Part shown: positions 4,062-34,401 of the stretch, piece by piece | Layout of the letters: each line of letters begins with the position of its first letter | Position numbering within the stretch: the stretch's first letter is position 1 | Assembly: GCA_018260755.1 (NCBI GenBank) | Contig: JAGTWP010000006.1 | Location: forward strand, 1 to 34,844 | From: Candidatus Altarchaeum sp. | Lineage (GTDB): Archaea; Altiarchaeota; Altiarchaeia; Altiarchaeales; Altiarchaeaceae | Length of the DNA: 34,844 nt | Direction: 5' to 3' | Made by a program: the position numbers and the translations under genes | Notes under the pieces: generated by a model | The model's input: only the letters and a program-made list of their open reading frames with translations | Databases searched by the model: none | What the model was told of the DNA's origin: nothing

Positions 4062-4092
4062 AACGATAAAATTTAAAACATTGCATACAAAT

Positions 4093-6717
4093 ATGAAAAC
4101 TAAAATTTTGATATTATTTGCTATTTTAATACTCACAACCATAGTTATAGGAACAATGCAGGCAGAACCCATTTATGATTATGGCAATTATTCTGTGAAT
4201 AACAATGTTACAATCTCAGCATGCCTTAATGTAAATGTAGATAAACTTTATGCAAATATAACAAAACCCGATAATACAATAAAAATTACATCACTTTCTT
4301 GTGGAGGAACAAATTATTGTCAACCTTCATGGATTTATTGCACAGGAATATTTAAAAATGCAAATGTTTCTGGAATTTATAATGTGAGTTTTTATAGTGA
4401 TAAGTATGAGTTAAGTAATTCCTTTAGGGGATACTTTACTGTTTTTGAAGGAACATTTTTAAATGTTACTTTTCCATTAAACAATTCATTGACAAATAAC
4501 AGAACAATAATTATCAAAGGATTAACAAATGGAACAAATGTTAGTATAAATAAAGATAGCAATAATTTTACTGCAATTGTTGTGAATGGAACTTTTTTAT
4601 TTCCTTTAAATTTAACAGAAGGAGAAAATGTAATTAACATTGCCGCTTATGGAAAATATAGATTTCAAAATTTAACCGCTTTGAGAATATTTTTAGATAC
4701 AATTCCACCAGAAATCAGATGGATAAATTACAGCAACAGCATTAGAATTTACAAAACATTTAGATTTGCTTTAAATATAACTGACAATGTAAATCTAACT
4801 TATGTTTCTGCTAATATGGTGCTTGATGACATAACAGAAAACCTTTTTATTTATTTTGTTGATGGAAATTATGTTGTTAATGTTGAACCAACAAGAACAG
4901 GAGATTGGATATTAAAAATTAAAGCATGTGATTCAGCAGGAAATTGTAATGAAAGTTCTTTCAGTTATTATGCTTATCAGGAAACAGAAAATGAAGAAAA
5001 GCCAAAAATATCAATATTGCCATCAAATAGAACAGAAAATGTAAGCAAGGATGAAAATAAAACAGAATACGAAAACAAAACGGAAAATAAGAATGAAACT
5101 CTAAAAGAGCAAATAGTTATTTACACACATGGTAATTTGACAACAACATTAAATGCTTCAAGAACAGTTCTTGAAAATATTTCAGCAACAATTTATGCAA
5201 TTCCCTCTGAAAAAGGAATAAAATTTGAAGCAAATGGAAGTGCGTTGAAAAATTTTGAGTTTTATGTAAATGGAACAAAGGTAAAGACAAATGAAGAAGG
5301 ATATATAATTGATGAAAAAAGCAAGGGGATATTTTGGGATTCTTTAAAGGAAAGCTATGAAAAAAGTTTAAAGAGAATAGAAAAATCAAAAATATTAACT
5401 CAAGAAGGCTATGCAATTGGAAAAGTAAATTCAAGTAAAGAATTACAGATAATTGATGGAACATTGGTTGATTTGGAGGGGAATCTTGTAAAGGAAGATA
5501 TAACAATAGAACTTGAAAATGGAGAAAAGATCTTGGTTAAAGGTGGAATAATTGATAAAGAAAGCATCAAAATAATTGAAAAAGCAGAGAAAGATACTAA
5601 GGAAAAGAAAGATACTAATGAAAAAATATATAAAGAAGATAATAAAGAAACAGGAAGGATAACAAATCTGGATTTTGAGAATATTGAAGAAGGTGATGTT
5701 TATGAAGCAATGGTCAGGGATAACGAAGGAAATTTGATAAAAGACGGCGTTGCAGAAATTACTCTTCCAAACGGAGAAAAGATTAAAGTAAAAACAGATA
5801 AGAATGGAAAAGTAAAATTAACTAATGAGAATGGAAAAACAGTACAAGTTGAAAAGGGAAATGCAGAACTTCCTGAAAAAATTGAAGAAGGAAAAGGAAT
5901 TGAAACAGAAGTTAGAGACAGCAGCGGAAATTTGATAAAAGACGGTGTTGCAGAAATTACTTTGCCAAACGGAGAAAAGATTAAAGTAAAAACAGATAAG
6001 AACGGAAAAGTAAAATTAACTAATGAGAATGGAAAAACAGTACAAGTTGAAAAGGGAAATGCAGAACTTCCTGAAAAAATTGAAGAAGGAAAAGGAATTG
6101 AAACAGAAGTTAGAGACAGCAGCGGAAATTTGATAAAAGACGGTGTTGCAGAAATTACTTTGCCAAACGGAGAAAAGATTAAAGTTAGAACAGATAAAGA
6201 CGGAAAGGTAAAATTAATGCAAAAAGATGGAAAAATTGAACAAATAAATGCGACAAACATAAAAATTCCAGAGATTAAAGAAAATGAAAATTATAAAATA
6301 GAAGTTAGAGATGAAAACGGGAATTTAATAAAGAACAGCGATGTTGACATTTTACTTCCAAATGGGCAAATACTGAATGTTTTAACTGATGAAAACGGAA
6401 AGGTAAACTTACAATATAAAGATGAAATTTTTTCACAAATACAAAAGCAGGAATTTGAATTTCGGTGGTATTACTTGCTGCCTTTACTTTTAATTCCCTT
6501 ACTTTTATATCTCTTTCTTAAAGAAGATGTAATTTTAAGCTACGAATTTTATAAAAAATTGAAGGAAGAAAATAAGTTAAGAGAAATTGAAAAATATGGA
6601 AAGAAATATATGCTTAAAAAATATATCTGTGAAGTTAATGACATAAAGGTGATTTTTATTGATTCTGAAAGTGAAGAGCAATTAGCAAAGAAACTAAAGT
6701 TAAAAATTTTGAAATAA
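4093..6717 (+). CDS. Repeat-rich surface protein with C-terminal membrane anchor
   Basis: The ORF track begins at TTG 4081, but ATG 4093 (MKTKILILFAILILTT...) gives a clean signal peptide, so I choose 4093 (874 aa). The N-terminal half has Ig/beta-sandwich character and many N-x-S/T sites. From about residue 535 there are three near-identical 66-residue repeats and a fourth diverged one (core DGVAEITLPNGEKIKVKTD), with a still weaker copy upstream (ITIELENGEKILVKGG). A membrane helix (YYLLPLLLIPLLLYLFL, about 790-812) is followed by a charged cytoplasmic tail of about 60 aa ending KLKLKILK. Likely a cell-surface stalk or adhesin-like protein. The near-identity of repeats at DNA level implies recent expansion or gene conversion. 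Confidence 0.85.
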   Translation: MKTKILILFAILILTTIVIGTMQAEPIYDYGNYSVNNNVTISACLNVNVDKLYANITKPDNTIKITSLSCGGTNYCQPSWIYCTGIFKNANVSGIYNVSFYSDKYELSNSFRGYFTVFEGTFLNVTFPLNNSLTNNRTIIIKGLTNGTNVSINKDSNNFTAIVVNGTFLFPLNLTEGENVINIAAYGKYRFQNLTALRIFLDTIPPEIRWINYSNSIRIYKTFRFALNITDNVNLTYVSANMVLDDITENLFIYFVDGNYVVNVEPTRTGDWILKIKACDSAGNCNESSFSYYAYQETENEEKPKISILPSNRTENVSKDENKTEYENKTENKNETLKEQIVIYTHGNLTTTLNASRTVLENISATIYAIPSEKGIKFEANGSALKNFEFYVNGTKVKTNEEGYIIDEKSKGIFWDSLKESYEKSLKRIEKSKILTQEGYAIGKVNSSKELQIIDGTLVDLEGNLVKEDITIELENGEKILVKGGIIDKESIKIIEKAEKDTKEKKDTNEKIYKEDNKETGRITNLDFENIEEGDVYEAMVRDNEGNLIKDGVAEITLPNGEKIKVKTDKNGKVKLTNENGKTVQVEKGNAELPEKIEEGKGIETEVRDSSGNLIKDGVAEITLPNGEKIKVKTDKNGKVKLTNENGKTVQVEKGNAELPEKIEEGKGIETEVRDSSGNLIKDGVAEITLPNGEKIKVRTDKDGKVKLMQKDGKIEQINATNIKIPEIKENENYKIEVRDENGNLIKNSDVDILLPNGQILNVLTDENGKVNLQYKDEIFSQIQKQEFEFRWYYLLPLLLIPLLLYLFLKEDVILSYEFYKKLKEENKLREIEKYGKKYMLKKYICEVNDIKVIFIDSESEEQLAKKLKLKILK
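5731..6400 (+). repeat. Tandem 198-bp coding repeats
   Basis: The string aatttgataaaagacgg recurs at 5731, 5929 and 6127, exactly 198 bp apart, and a diverged copy (aatttaataaagaac) sits at 6322, 195 bp further on. The first three units differ at only a few bases. All periods are multiples of three, so copy number can change without breaking the frame of the surface protein. Confidence 0.93.
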
Positions 6718-9569: not shown

Positions 9570-9659
9570 AGTAACTATTCAGTCATTCAAAAATCACAGG
9601 TAAATTTTTTGACTTTTTTGAAATTTTCATCGGGAAGTTTACACCTATTGAATAGTTAC
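9570..9659. mobile_element. Short MITE-like element, copy 2 (90 bp)
   Basis: Bounded by the inverted repeat gtaactattca (left) and tgaatagttac (right). The left 50 bp (cagtcattcaaaaatcacag + gtaaattttttgac) are homologous to the truncated copy at 6718-6764 and to one end of the 34043-34289 element. The flanks attttaga and atttttga may be an imperfect target duplication. There is no coding capacity, so any movement would need a transposase supplied in trans. Confidence 0.6.
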
Positions 9660-9750
9660 ATTTTTGACATCATTTATAGTTATGTTGTTATAAAATATTT
9701 CCCTGATATTATTCAAAATAGTATTATTCAAAATAAACAAATTTTTGATA

Positions 9751-9793
9751 ATTTCAAAAACGAAGTTTTTGAAATATCCGAGCGTTAGCGAGG
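9751..9793 (+). repeat. Hairpin-plus-tail element 1
   Basis: A perfect 11-bp stem atttcaaaaac/gtttttgaaat with loop gaa is followed directly by atccgagcgttagcgagg. The tail matches the conserved tail of the other elements (CGAACGAAGTGAG-like) while the stem sequence is its own. Confidence 0.65.
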
Positions 9794-9808
9794 TTAAAAC
9801 TCCATTTC

Positions 9809-9913
9809 CAAGCGTTCACAAAAATCTTATGGATTTTTGAGGTACTCAAAAACGCTTGAAGCATTTTTGATATACCGAGAAAATACACGAACGGAAGTGA
9901 GTGAGTGTATTTC
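9809..9913 (+). repeat. Compound hairpin cluster with tail element 2
   Basis: Nested inverted repeats: caagcgtt (9809-9816) pairs with aacgcttg (9851-9858) and encloses caaaaatc-ttat-ggatttttg; another arm pair is tcaaaaa/tttttga (9846-9870). The conserved tail follows as tacacgaacggaagtgag with flanking aaatacac/gtgtattt arms. With element 1 and the MITE this fills most of the 450-bp gap 9549-9997, where I see no gene. Confidence 0.55.
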
Positions 9914-13855: not shown

Positions 13856-14389
13856 TTAGAATATTTTAAAATTTTTCAACTCCTTTATTTTTTCAACAAT
13901 TTTCTCACTCAAATTTATTTTCTTTTCTATTTTAAATGGAAAATTAATCCTTCCGATGAACTCAACATAAGCATTACCTTTTATCATTATATCTACTTTC
14001 CCATTATTTTTAACTATTTCATCTGTAATATTTAACAACCGGTTTAAATTTTCATACTTTATATTTACTTCGCTTCTTGCTATTTTTGTTTCATTCGGGG
14101 GAATTATTAGTTGTTCATTAAGAGTTCCATTACCTATATAAATCCCATCCAAATAAATTTCATAGTCCGCTCCGTCAAGAGTGGCGGGAATTTTATTCGG
14201 ATTATATGCTTTTAAATTTAAATTCAAAGTAATTTGCTGCAAGTCAATGTTTTTTATTTCAACACTTTCAAAATCCATTTCAACATTTTTAAATGCCTCC
14301 TTTTCCTGAATTTGTGAAAATAGATAAAGTCCTGCGATTAGCAATATGACCAATATTGCAAATATTCCTGCAATTATTTTTGTTTTCAT
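13856..14389 (-). CDS. Membrane-anchored LEA14/WHy-domain protein
   Basis: 177 aa. N-terminal membrane helix (residues 5-25, IIAGIFAILVILLIAGLYLF) followed by one LEA type 2/WHy domain (about 35-155), recognisable from VEIKNIDLQQITLNLNLKAYNPNKIPATLDGADYEIYLDG and the later IPPNETKIARSEVNI. Such domains are immunoglobulin-like folds linked to desiccation or stress in other organisms; the archaeal role is unknown. Its first codons and upstream 70 bp are duplicated at 17606-17704, at the edge of the cargo insertion. The region 13805-13862 just downstream holds degenerate repeats of tttattagaatatt. Confidence 0.85.
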   Translation of the reverse strand: MKTKIIAGIFAILVILLIAGLYLFSQIQEKEAFKNVEMDFESVEIKNIDLQQITLNLNLKAYNPNKIPATLDGADYEIYLDGIYIGNGTLNEQLIIPPNETKIARSEVNIKYENLNRLLNITDEIVKNNGKVDIMIKGNAYVEFIGRINFPFKIEKKINLSEKIVEKIKELKNFKIF

Positions 14390-15152
14390 TTCGGATAAAT
14401 TTTGAATAAATTTTTAAATTTTACAGATAAATTTAATTAAATTTGATTTAAAATATCTCTACCATACAGGAATGAAAATTTCGTTGTAGCCCAAAAATCC
14501 AAGCCCTATTTCTCCGTCTTTAACACTTGGAAGCATAGGTGATATTCCGGGAATTTCAGAGTGCATAAATATTATTTCATAAGCATGTGTTGTCAATGCC
14601 CCGAGTATAAAAGCAGGTAATCCAAATATGCTTATCAATATGGACATAGGAAGTGTTGTCAAAATTTCCATCTGTGCGTGAGGAACGAGAATTAAATAGC
14701 CCTTGGCGGTTATTGTGAATATAAGAATAGAAAAAACAACAAAGAGCAGATAATGATTCGGAAATTTTCTTATGATTACAGAAAACAACAAAACAAAAAG
14801 TAATCCAACAATAAAAAGTTCAATTGTATGAAAATTTACAAAACAGGCAAATATTCCAAATAGCAAAAATATAGCAGATAAATTTTTTGCCCTGCCTTGT
14901 GAAGATAAATATAAAGCACCTATTCCTGACAACGATGCCACAATCGCAAAGTCAGCAATAAATTTCCATCCGGGCAGTTTGCTTATTTTCTCAATAAATT
15001 TAATTCCGTATTTCGTCCTTATCAGAAAGATTATTCCTAAATATCTTTGCTCGTTTTTTCTCATTAGCAATGCAGTCCCGACAAAAAATAATAGAAAAAA
15101 TGCAATAATACCGAACATCATGTAAAAGTCCATGGTTTTTAATTAACGAATA
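14362..15152. repeat. Left copy of the S2P-locus direct repeat (with 769-bp deletion)
   Basis: By eye, 14362-14460 (99 bp) is identical to 17606-17704, and 14461-15152 (692 bp) is identical to 18474-19165. The right-hand locus contains 769 extra bases (17705-18473) exactly at the 14460/14461 junction. The left repeat is thus the right repeat with one internal deletion. It starts inside the LEA14-like gene and ends in what are, at the right copy, the last codons of the flavin-reductase-like gene. Confidence 0.93.
14459..15133 (-). pseudogene. Truncated duplicate of the site-2 protease gene
   Basis: 224 codons identical to residues 1-224 of the full S2P gene at 17692-19146. The frame ends with VW-TAG, the stop being formed by the deletion junction. 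The copy stops twelve residues before the HEISH zinc motif, so it lacks both the active site and the NLMPLSPFDGG motif and cannot be a protease. If translated it would give a stub with several membrane helices, possibly able to compete with the full protein for partners; this is speculation. Confidence 0.92.
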
Positions 15153-28098: not shown

Positions 28099-30594
28099 TC
28101 ATACACCTGCAACAATATTGTCAATTAAAGCAAATACATCAAGTAAATTTATGTTGTCGCTGTCACTTCCAACAAATTTATAATAACTTTTTCCGTATTT
28201 ATCATACTTGGTTAATTCTGTTAAATTTTTTTCTCCGCTTAAATATTCAAGCATTTCAACAGCATCAAAAATGTCATCTGCCTTTATTAATTCATTCTCA
28301 CAAAGTCCTGCAGCAGAATAAATTCCATGTTTAGCAAACGCATTACATATAACCTTTTTATGAGGAGTTCCGTCTTCTACATTTGCATTATCGTCATCTG
28401 CTATGAGCAAATTATCCATAAATTCCGAAAAGTTATAAGCATGAGGTGTAATTCGTATCGCCTTAAAGATTAATGAGTCCGTAAGAGTATTGTTTAAATT
28501 TTTGCGAACATCCCATAATGCTCCGCTTAGAATTAAACCAAAAATATGAGGGTCAGAATTACTCCAGTTTTCCGGATACTTTCGAGTATTATTAAGATTC
28601 CTCGCAAATGACCATCCGTCTGCAAGTATAGAATCGTTATTGATAGTGCATGCAAAATAATCTGCAAATGCTTCGTGCATCGCATCTTCCATAATATTGC
28701 CACTTTCTCCAAGGTCATAAATATGGCCTACAACTGCATGCGTATATTCATGATATATTATGTCACTTCCCAACGCAGGACTTTCGCAGTTTTGTTGGGG
28801 CCCGCTAAAAGTTATTCTATCCATTCCAGGAGAATAAAGAGCATTACATTTGACGCCATTAGCTTCTACAACAGCCTTTAACGGATAATCCAGTTCGGAA
28901 AAATTAAATTCGGCAAAATAATCATGAATTTTATTTACATGGTAATATGTATTTGATTCTTCCTGTCTATAAGAAGTATCATGAGCCATCCAATTCCAAT
29001 TATGTGTTTCATTTCCGCCCCATAAAAAATCATAAAATGTATCGTTTTGTTTATCATTGTCCACATCCACATATAAACCTATTAATTCGGAATGAATATT
29101 TGTATTATTTTCTATTCTTGTAATTTCATAATATCCGTTTTTATCTGTGGCATCATATATATGACTAAAGGACTTGTTAACTACTTTAAATTTTGACAGA
29201 TTCCACTTTCCATTGTCATTTTCAGCATCATCAAAAAATGCGACTCCAGAGTCAGTTATAATTGAAATATTATCAACATAAAAGCCCTCCTTAAATTCAT
29301 ACTTATCACAAGTATATCTAAATCTTAAAAGTATTTCTCCCTTAGTATAATTGGAAATATCTATGTTTTCTTCAAGAACAATAAAACTATTTCCAGTGTA
29401 TGCAAATGAATTGTTTATCCATCCCTGTGTATAAACACCCGGATTACTATATGAACTTGTATATTTTCCTTTTAATTGTTTCCACGAATTTCCTGAATCG
29501 TTTGAAATTTCAATGTATGCAAAGTCCCAGCCCGGTTCGATATAGTATTGTGTAAGAAATGTTAAATTTGCATGAGTGGCATTAGAAAGATTTATCGGAA
29601 ATTTAATTGTCATATTGCTATCATAAAAATTTCCTTCCGTGCCGATTCCGGAGTAAAATGCCGAACTCTTTGAGGTAATATTTATTTTGATAATTTCATA
29701 ACTAAAATTTTTCTCCTGCTGAACATCATCATATTTCTTTGGATAAATCATCCCGCTAACGGTTCCATTAACATATCCAAACTTTATGCCATTATGTTTT
29801 TTGATTATTTTGCCGGAAAATGCGTCAATAAAAAATATCCAGTCGCCTAACGGGGACTCTGTAACAACAAAGACATTCCACACCAAAGTATATCTCCCAT
29901 CCTCTTTTGGAATAATCATAAGAGAAATTTCTTTAATTTTATCTTCTTTATTATTAAAATTTACATCTTCCTTTGCTATTCTTATAGCATCTCCTTTTGA
30001 AATTTTTGGTATTGTGGAAATATTAATCCCCTGCTGAAAATCGCTCCCAATAATTAAAATTCTTCCGTATCCGTCAATAGTTAAACCGACAAGACCACGA
30101 TAAACGGGAATATCTTCATAGTACTGCTGATAGGCTACATAATAGTTGTCACGGTCTGAGTCAAATTTTTTTAATTTTAAATTAGCTGAATTTACCTTTA
30201 AAAATTTTTCGTTATCAGAAATAAAATTATCGGTGATTTTTAGAATATTTCCCCCTTTTATTTTTTCTTCCTTTATTTGTTTTAAGCCAGTTTCTTTAAA
30301 ACCTTCAATTTTTGTATCTCTACCAAAAATTCTGTAAGGTTGTCCTGTTTTGTTGCTCGGGTAAAATTTTAAATTTAAATTTTCTAAATTGCTTAAATCA
30401 GAGTAATTGTTAGAAATTTTGCCATTTTCAAATAAGCAAATTATTTGAAAATATCCGAACGAAGTGAGGTTAGAAACATTAATTTCGGAACTTGTGTCAA
30501 CTGTTCTTACTTCATCAGACGTTATACTATTTTCACTAATTGTAAAAATAAAAAAGATGCACAAGACAACAAAAATCAGGACTTTATTTGCCAT
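28099..30594 (-). CDS. Secreted zinc metalloprotease (M4/M36-like) with dockerin-like end
   Basis: 831 aa. A signal peptide (ANKVLIFVVLCIFFIFT) is followed by an FTP/PepSY-like propeptide (about 60-270, KLKKFDSDRDNYYVAYQQYYEDIPVYRGLVGLTID), a beta-sandwich insert (about 290-480), and the catalytic domain with H615-E-Y-T-H619 and third ligand E641 in MHEAFADYFA. The C-terminal 70 residues contain two EF-hand-like helices, DDIFDAVEMLEYLSG and DSDNINLLDVFALIDNIVAG, like type I dockerin repeats. There is no C-terminal membrane anchor, so it may be secreted or held by protein-protein contact. Residues about 42-57 are encoded by a hairpin-plus-tail element. Confidence 0.88.
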   Translation of the reverse strand: MANKVLIFVVLCIFFIFTISENSITSDEVRTVDTSSEINVSNLTSFGYFQIICLFENGKISNNYSDLSNLENLNLKFYPSNKTGQPYRIFGRDTKIEGFKETGLKQIKEEKIKGGNILKITDNFISDNEKFLKVNSANLKLKKFDSDRDNYYVAYQQYYEDIPVYRGLVGLTIDGYGRILIIGSDFQQGINISTIPKISKGDAIRIAKEDVNFNNKEDKIKEISLMIIPKEDGRYTLVWNVFVVTESPLGDWIFFIDAFSGKIIKKHNGIKFGYVNGTVSGMIYPKKYDDVQQEKNFSYEIIKINITSKSSAFYSGIGTEGNFYDSNMTIKFPINLSNATHANLTFLTQYYIEPGWDFAYIEISNDSGNSWKQLKGKYTSSYSNPGVYTQGWINNSFAYTGNSFIVLEENIDISNYTKGEILLRFRYTCDKYEFKEGFYVDNISIITDSGVAFFDDAENDNGKWNLSKFKVVNKSFSHIYDATDKNGYYEITRIENNTNIHSELIGLYVDVDNDKQNDTFYDFLWGGNETHNWNWMAHDTSYRQEESNTYYHVNKIHDYFAEFNFSELDYPLKAVVEANGVKCNALYSPGMDRITFSGPQQNCESPALGSDIIYHEYTHAVVGHIYDLGESGNIMEDAMHEAFADYFACTINNDSILADGWSFARNLNNTRKYPENWSNSDPHIFGLILSGALWDVRKNLNNTLTDSLIFKAIRITPHAYNFSEFMDNLLIADDDNANVEDGTPHKKVICNAFAKHGIYSAAGLCENELIKADDIFDAVEMLEYLSGEKNLTELTKYDKYGKSYYKFVGSDSDNINLLDVFALIDNIVAGV
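30425..30471 (+). repeat. Hairpin-plus-tail element inside the protease gene
   Basis: A perfect 10-bp stem ttttcaaata/tatttgaaaa with loop agcaaat is followed by tatccgaacgaagtgaggtt. It is in the open reading frame of the protease, read antisense as NLTSFGYFQIICLFEN, between signal peptide and propeptide, and does not break the frame. Confidence 0.6.
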
Positions 30595-33932: not shown

Positions 33933-34135
33933 AATTTTACCAAATCTCCTACCTGATTTTTGCGTTTTATGAAATAATATTTTAACGTTATTTTTAATTT
34001 TTGTTATTGAATTAATTTATTATTTTGTTATTGAATTAATTTAGTAACTATTCAGAGGGTACAAAAATTTACTGAAAATTTATAAATAAATTTTCAATCT
34101 TAAAAAATATTTCAAATATTTTTTAATACCTGCGA

Positions 34136-34176
34136 TTTTCAAACTTGTTTGAAAATACACGAACGAAGTCAGTGTA
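34136..34176 (+). repeat. Hairpin-plus-tail element (MITE unit a)
   Basis: Perfect 9-bp stem ttttcaaac/gtttgaaaa (loop tt) followed by tacacgaacgaagtcagtgta; the tail itself has tacac/gtgta ends. Confidence 0.65.
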
Positions 34177-34194
34177 AAATTTCAAAAAATACAA

Positions 34195-34239
34195 TTTTAA
34201 AATCTCAAAGATTTTAAAATACACGAACGAAGTGAACGC
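34195..34239 (+). repeat. Hairpin-plus-tail element (MITE unit b)
   Basis: Perfect 11-bp stem ttttaaaatct/agattttaaaa (loop caa) followed by tacacgaacgaagtgaacgc. The tail is shared with unit a for 13 bases while the stem is different. Confidence 0.65.
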
Positions 34240-34401
34240 AAAAATCAAAAAATTTACTCGTAATTTTTTGGGGTGGCTGAATAGTTACTTAATTTAATCA
34301 TAATTTTTATAAAAGAAGTAAATTTATAAAGATTATCTTATTATAAACAAATATTATTTCATAAACTATAATATCACAAACTATCATATTATAAACATAA
34401 G

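Follow-up and report, generated by a model that had tools for sequence, protein, structure and literature searches.

The protease gene and its palindromic insert

The analysed window, i.e. the whole 34,844-nt stretch of a Candidatus Altarchaeum contig (genome G000, 1.32 Mb in 78 contigs), carries an intact protease gene in which a short palindromic element lies on the opposite strand:

28099-30594, minus strand: host gene of a secreted metalloprotease, 831 aa, intact (HEYTH motif, PepSY and InhA-like MAM matches, repeated C-terminal domain)
30424-30472, plus strand (gene on minus): two-hairpin element within the protease gene (covariance-model match of 60 bits, E 1e-8; empty site in contig L057)
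30424-30452, plus strand: hairpin H1, ATTTTCAAATAA-gcaaa-TTATTTGAAAAT (DNA fold; H1 covariation among copies)
30452-30472, plus strand: hairpin H2, TATCC-GAACGAAGTGA-GGTTA (covariation and invariant positions)

The unit runs from A to A and brings a net gain of 48 nt, i.e. the 16 residues NLTSFGYFQIICLFEN, with the reading frame preserved; the insert follows the signal peptide and precedes the PepSY propeptide, where it would act as a tolerated spacer separating the two. An earlier note had placed a hairpin-plus-tail element at 30425-30471, in frame and in a tolerated position, and had taken it to show that such an element can enter genes or be exapted as a protein linker. Its coordinates were correct to ∼1 nt, and the intact frame and the site of the insert agree with the tolerance it proposed. 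The hairpin is real (H1: 12-bp arms, 5-nt loop, DNA fold of −8.7 kcal/mol, z = −2.5, 2 of 200 shuffles equally good), whereas the tail, whose motif occurs three times in the window at two or fewer mismatches versus a shuffle mean of 0.20, is better described as another hairpin, which has one T.T mismatch, a tandem G.A, 2 bp and a GAA loop (H2, core 30457-30467). The insert is tolerated at this place, whereas its exaptation as a linker with a gained function is weakly supported. The protease C-terminal domain of ∼60 aa (residues 770-830, window 28099-28290) recurs in many places of the Altarchaeum genomes, mostly at 60-73% identity, and may serve surface proteins as an anchoring or dockerin-like module.

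The alignment with close orthologues that the earlier note had proposed as a check yielded one close orthologue, 84% identical, in the congener G003 (L057); it reads SSEINVS-VKISNNY and is devoid of exactly the 16 residues, thus showing no conservation of these as a part of the fold. At the DNA level, its empty site is TTTTGAC[G]GAAAC, with the single base G instead of the unit. The polarity at this site is read from this one congener, the orthologue of which is broken downstream by a miniature transposable element (MITE). The latter, at L057 2530-2738 (ends GGTGCTGACCC.../...GAGTACC, 8-bp duplication AGATAATG), itself contains a two-hairpin element.

A multicopy element of the genus Candidatus Altarchaeum

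The element is 37-50 nt long, encodes no gene and consists of two adjoining hairpins, the variable H1 (ATTT...AAAT) and H2 with the loop core GAACGAAGTGA, which have one T in common at their junction. G000 contains the 11-base core 78 times, versus once for the reversed control, and three Candidatus Altarchaeum congeners contain it 98, 122 and 157 times; elsewhere in the class it is rare, except in G026 (17 copies) and G016 (9 copies). A covariance model built from 20 chosen copies gave, with 150 candidates scored, at least 127 to at least 148 matches per genome in the four genus genomes, all metagenome-assembled and 65-87% complete, and 191 matches on 0.9 Mb of G003; outside the genus, G026 gave 14 matches and a further nine genomes searched gave none. 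A 15-base core had many exact matches in public genomes and viral contigs, but the two-hairpin unit was strongly matched by the model only in Altarchaeum contigs, with weak matches in L076, L205 and L197, indicating that the core alone is not diagnostic. The element is therefore a multicopy one in Candidatus Altarchaeum. The Rfam search, which found the archaeal SRP RNA in G000, returned no match for the element. Four further copies lie in the window, two of them within a MITE:

34044-34288, no strand assigned: MITE with two element copies, terminal inverted repeat (TIR) GTAACTATTCAG, 8-bp flanking repeat TTAATTTA (sequence, inverted repeat, 31 TIR matches in G000)
34133-34179, plus strand: second copy, within this MITE (model match)
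34192-34243, plus strand: third copy, same MITE (model match)
9749-9799, plus strand: fourth copy, diverged, H2 core GAGCGTTAGCGA (model match, E 3e-5)
9861-9912, plus strand: fifth copy, weak and diverged (model match, E 0.0055)

The TIR pattern had 10-30 matches in the congeners, and a second window MITE at 9572-9659 has the same terminal repeat and an apparent 8-bp duplication. Other repeats of the window are exact ones of 99 and 300 nt (14362-14759 and 17606-17704/18473-18772), looking as if from recent gene-segment duplication, and three tandem 198-nt repeats (5676-6269; 74-88% alike) within the 878-aa ORF 4081-6717.

Both hairpins are conserved as structure

Across the copies, the outer ATTT/AAAT of H1 is constant while its inner pairs change freely. 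The 11-nt core of H2 folds into G.A, A.G, two pairs (A-T and C-G, with G-C/T-A replacements) and a GAA loop, of which the tandem G.A and the loop are near-invariant, and a single mismatch is usual in its stem, either T.T (third pair) or A.C (second pair). In alignments of 124 and 59 distinct rows (183 copies), which lean toward the structure since a model of it served both to find and to align the copies, 93.9% and 92.6% of the cells were paired and double changes occurred at 11 of the 14 pairs; none of 500 shuffles matched the paired percentage or the covariation score, and sliding the partner by 1-3 columns lowered the pairing to 21-53%. Wobbles in H1 were 46 G.T versus 8 A.C, pointing to the GAACGAAGTGA strand as the one on which the fold is maintained. 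Both hairpins are thus conserved as structure and not as sequence, with the covariation fitting RNA and single-stranded DNA alike. In DNA, d(GCGAAGC) is an extra-stable mini-hairpin, a GNA triloop closed by two pairs; H2 is built likewise (AC-GAA-GT, GC-GAA-GC, AT-GAA-AT), a likeness that is a physical analogy and not one of family.

The unit replaces a single base at empty sites

The flanks of each copy were compared between G000 and G003, and with repeated regions inside each genome, by requiring at least 21 of 30 equal flank bases on each side; this gave 40 distinct comparisons, which are not all independent as they include related MITE-internal copies. In 30 of the 40, the unit ATTT...GNNNA replaces exactly one base, A in 28 cases and G in two, the protease site among the latter, so the net insert is the unit length minus one. 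The single A fits a 1-nt duplication or an insertion beside an A. An empty site in L041 that seemed to share GAGGT with the element proved to be an alignment artefact, and is explained by the one-A model. The element inserts as an exact unit, with A at both ends, at sites that hold a single A or G when empty.

Element positions differ between the congeners, and this presence and absence demonstrates mobility. Newer copies are also nested in the hairpins of older ones, e.g. CGAACG[A]AGTGAG, CCGAGC[A]ACAGCG and AAACGC[A]GAGG, a pattern that targeting of looped single strands would produce. Some targets are the terminal A of another copy; insertion there would yield direct tandems sharing that A, and 48-nt arrays do exist. 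Two of these, at L339 4896-5145 and L367 1488-1781 of G003, consist of 5-6 nearly exact 48-nt units, and the L367 array forms an open repeat-peptide frame (MFKSAKDSNISERSEV).

Copies within genes are mostly in frame

By simple ORF calling, 246 copies were placed, 211 of them intergenic, 14 across ORF edges and 21 wholly within ORFs; the coding share of the G003 stretches is 81%. The insert length is divisible by three in 18 of the 21 in-ORF copies versus 50 of 157 distinct copies elsewhere (Fisher p 2.8e-6). The inserts add 12-16 aa, typically as LTSFGDF...EN and TSLRSDI peptides, and the hosts include GatB, the CCA-adding enzyme, AMP phosphorylase and GDP-mannose pyrophosphorylase, some of the hosts being essential enzymes. 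Homologues without the insert were found for:

DNA methylase, L025 versus L348: 14-aa insert, absent from the homologue
CCA-adding enzyme, L055 versus L328: homologue without the insert
Iron-sulfur protein, L028 versus L354/L353: two inserts of 12 and 14 aa, absent from the homologue
CBS-like protein, L041 versus L344: 15-aa insert, absent from the homologue
DUF1016 protein, L355 versus L031/L339: homologue without the insert
Further pair, L373 versus L037: homologue without the insert

The L028 protein, with Pfam matches only of Fer4 type and HTH, is presumably a carbon monoxide dehydrogenase as read from its sequence. Among solved homologues, 3h0l has a gap at the GatB insert, which separates the two Pfam domain matches, 2x5s has one at the insert of mannose-1-phosphate guanylyltransferase, and the AMP phosphorylase insert falls within a stretch not aligned to 4ga5. 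Most genic copies thus keep the reading frame, and homologues lack the ones that were compared; together with the empty orthologous site and the length bias, this bears out the claim that a palindromic element had entered the protease gene in frame. Copies also occur at gene starts (L034 3007-3053, L040 1563-1617, L041 2979-3025), where they could supply a start codon and an N-terminal extension (MTSLRSD...), e.g. to an isocitrate/isopropylmalate dehydrogenase-like gene.

That the 16 residues are native to the protease and were lost in G003, or that the hairpin arose by chance, is hardly credible: G003 does provide the sole close orthologue, in a gene that is MITE-broken, but the 60-bit model match, a family numbering well over 100 copies, the exact unit boundaries and the recurrence of the LTSFGDF..EN peptide type in unrelated proteins all argue against it. 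Another reading takes the copies as a structured RNA selected for a cellular role, such as processing or regulation, the gene copies being accidental. The strong covariation, the tolerance of G.U on one strand, the tandem G.A and the excess of intergenic copies would suit such an RNA; yet 17 of the 21 genic copies lie opposite to the gene and place the non-folding strand in the mRNA, an orientation that may only reflect stop codons, and with positions varying among congeners, copies nesting in one another and in MITEs, and no Rfam counterpart, we regard this reading as unlikely.

A probable single-stranded DNA route

We therefore favour, with a probability of roughly 0.78, a non-autonomous, gene-free mobile element of two adjoining hairpins that moves as single-stranded DNA in trans and inserts near randomly, with selection acting afterwards. 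The GAACGAAGTGA strand would fold into H1-H2, and an enzyme would recognise this fold and cut or join beside an A at both ends, in an IS200/605-like manner. Insertion would be near random relative to genes, and most genic copies would be removed by selection, leaving those that are in frame, stop-free and in tolerated loops or linkers. The single-stranded route is our best inference, as the two hairpins, exact ends, one-base target, strand-specific fold and nested targets resemble IS200/605-type elements. Counting against it, the usual enzyme for such elements is missing: no Y1 transposase (PF01797) was detected in the four genus genomes (65-87% complete), while control genomes were positive. 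In a Y2/IS91 search no control genome gave a match, and no multicopy ORF family adjoining the element copies was found.

The mover could still be a Y1 HUH transposase that the assemblies lack or that a virus or plasmid provides, with the element as a terminal-only IS200/605 derivative of the PATE or REP kind. Two near-terminal palindromes without inverted ends, a duplication of at most 1 nt, the strand-specific fold and the nested targeting all agree with this, and the 52-bp terminal-only PATEs of haloarchaea (PMC3119063) are alike, with tnpA genes mostly broken. Against it stand the Y1-free genomes, the two subfamily patterns that were searched in viral contigs with no match, and the TnpB elements, which just two of the genus genomes (G001 and G003) have and which end differently in those compared; we consider this origin a serious contender at somewhat below even odds. 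These TnpB-type elements (L387, L388 and L364 of G003; ∼95% identical, ∼1.35 kb, in a genome without a Y1 gene) have the unrelated inverted ends AGTGATTTCGCTTT...AAAGCGAAATCACT and no model match, and were rejected as partners.

Spread through an RNA intermediate and reverse transcription appears quite improbable. A structure conserved on one strand would suit such an intermediate, and one reverse transcriptase in G001 has two element copies nearby; RVT_1 was, however, found in this one of the four genus genomes and in neither G000 nor G003, and was dismissed as the mobiliser. A bolder and rather doubtful proposal is that single-stranded movement by a non-Y1 enzyme defines a new minimal class of mobile element, with two hairpins sharing one T, whose insertion target is one A within a single-stranded DNA loop and which steadily provides archaeal proteins with in-frame 12-16-aa peptides and start codons.

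Comparison with known systems

No report of such an element in Altarchaeota was found in the literature library searched, and a search by sequence gave nothing relevant. The palindromic elements of Rickettsia and Wolbachia (RPE/WPE) are multicopy palindromes that sit, with the frame preserved, in genes unrelated to one another, essential ones included (PMC10969869, PMC3767692). The Altarchaeum element is likewise palindromic, multicopy and in frame within ORFs of unrelated genes, so the likeness to bacterial elements drawn in the earlier note holds for the mode of action; at 37-50 nt it falls short of the RPE length of 100-150 bp and, as compared by description, differs in its two hairpins, defined one-base target and archaeal host. 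To our knowledge, no mobilising enzyme of RPE/WPE has been described.

REP hairpins have a conserved mismatch, as the present element has, and REP/RAYT systems share with it the short palindromes and high copy number. It differs from them in having no GTAG or CGTC tag at its ends, no Y1/RAYT (PF01797) in its genus (four genomes, 65-87% complete) and several in-gene copies, and from DDE-type MITEs in having neither terminal inverted repeats nor a multi-bp target duplication. The PATEs of Haloquadratum walsbyi (PMC3119063) are archaeal, gene-free, at shortest 52 bp, with near-terminal palindromes and no inverted ends, and target each other. The unit ATTT...GNNNA is similar in its palindromes near the ends and its lack of terminal inverted repeats. 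The ends of PATEs recur in IS605-type transposons of the same genome, while no such partner was found here, and the part of their description consulted mentions no in-frame protein insertion, unlike what is seen in Altarchaeum.

The Altarchaeum element is thus RPE-like in effect and PATE-like in build, and fits the definition of neither. So far, the insertion of palindromes in frame into proteins has passed for a peculiarity of Rickettsia and Wolbachia. That an archaeal lineage offers another case, seemingly unrelated to theirs and with exact empty sites, suggests that the enlargement of proteins by very small structured elements is a recurring process. The Altarchaeum case is also the cleaner system: its ends are defined, its target is one base, and filled and empty counterparts occur naturally, some of them in enzymes with solved homologues such as GatB, the CCA-adding enzyme and AMP phosphorylase.
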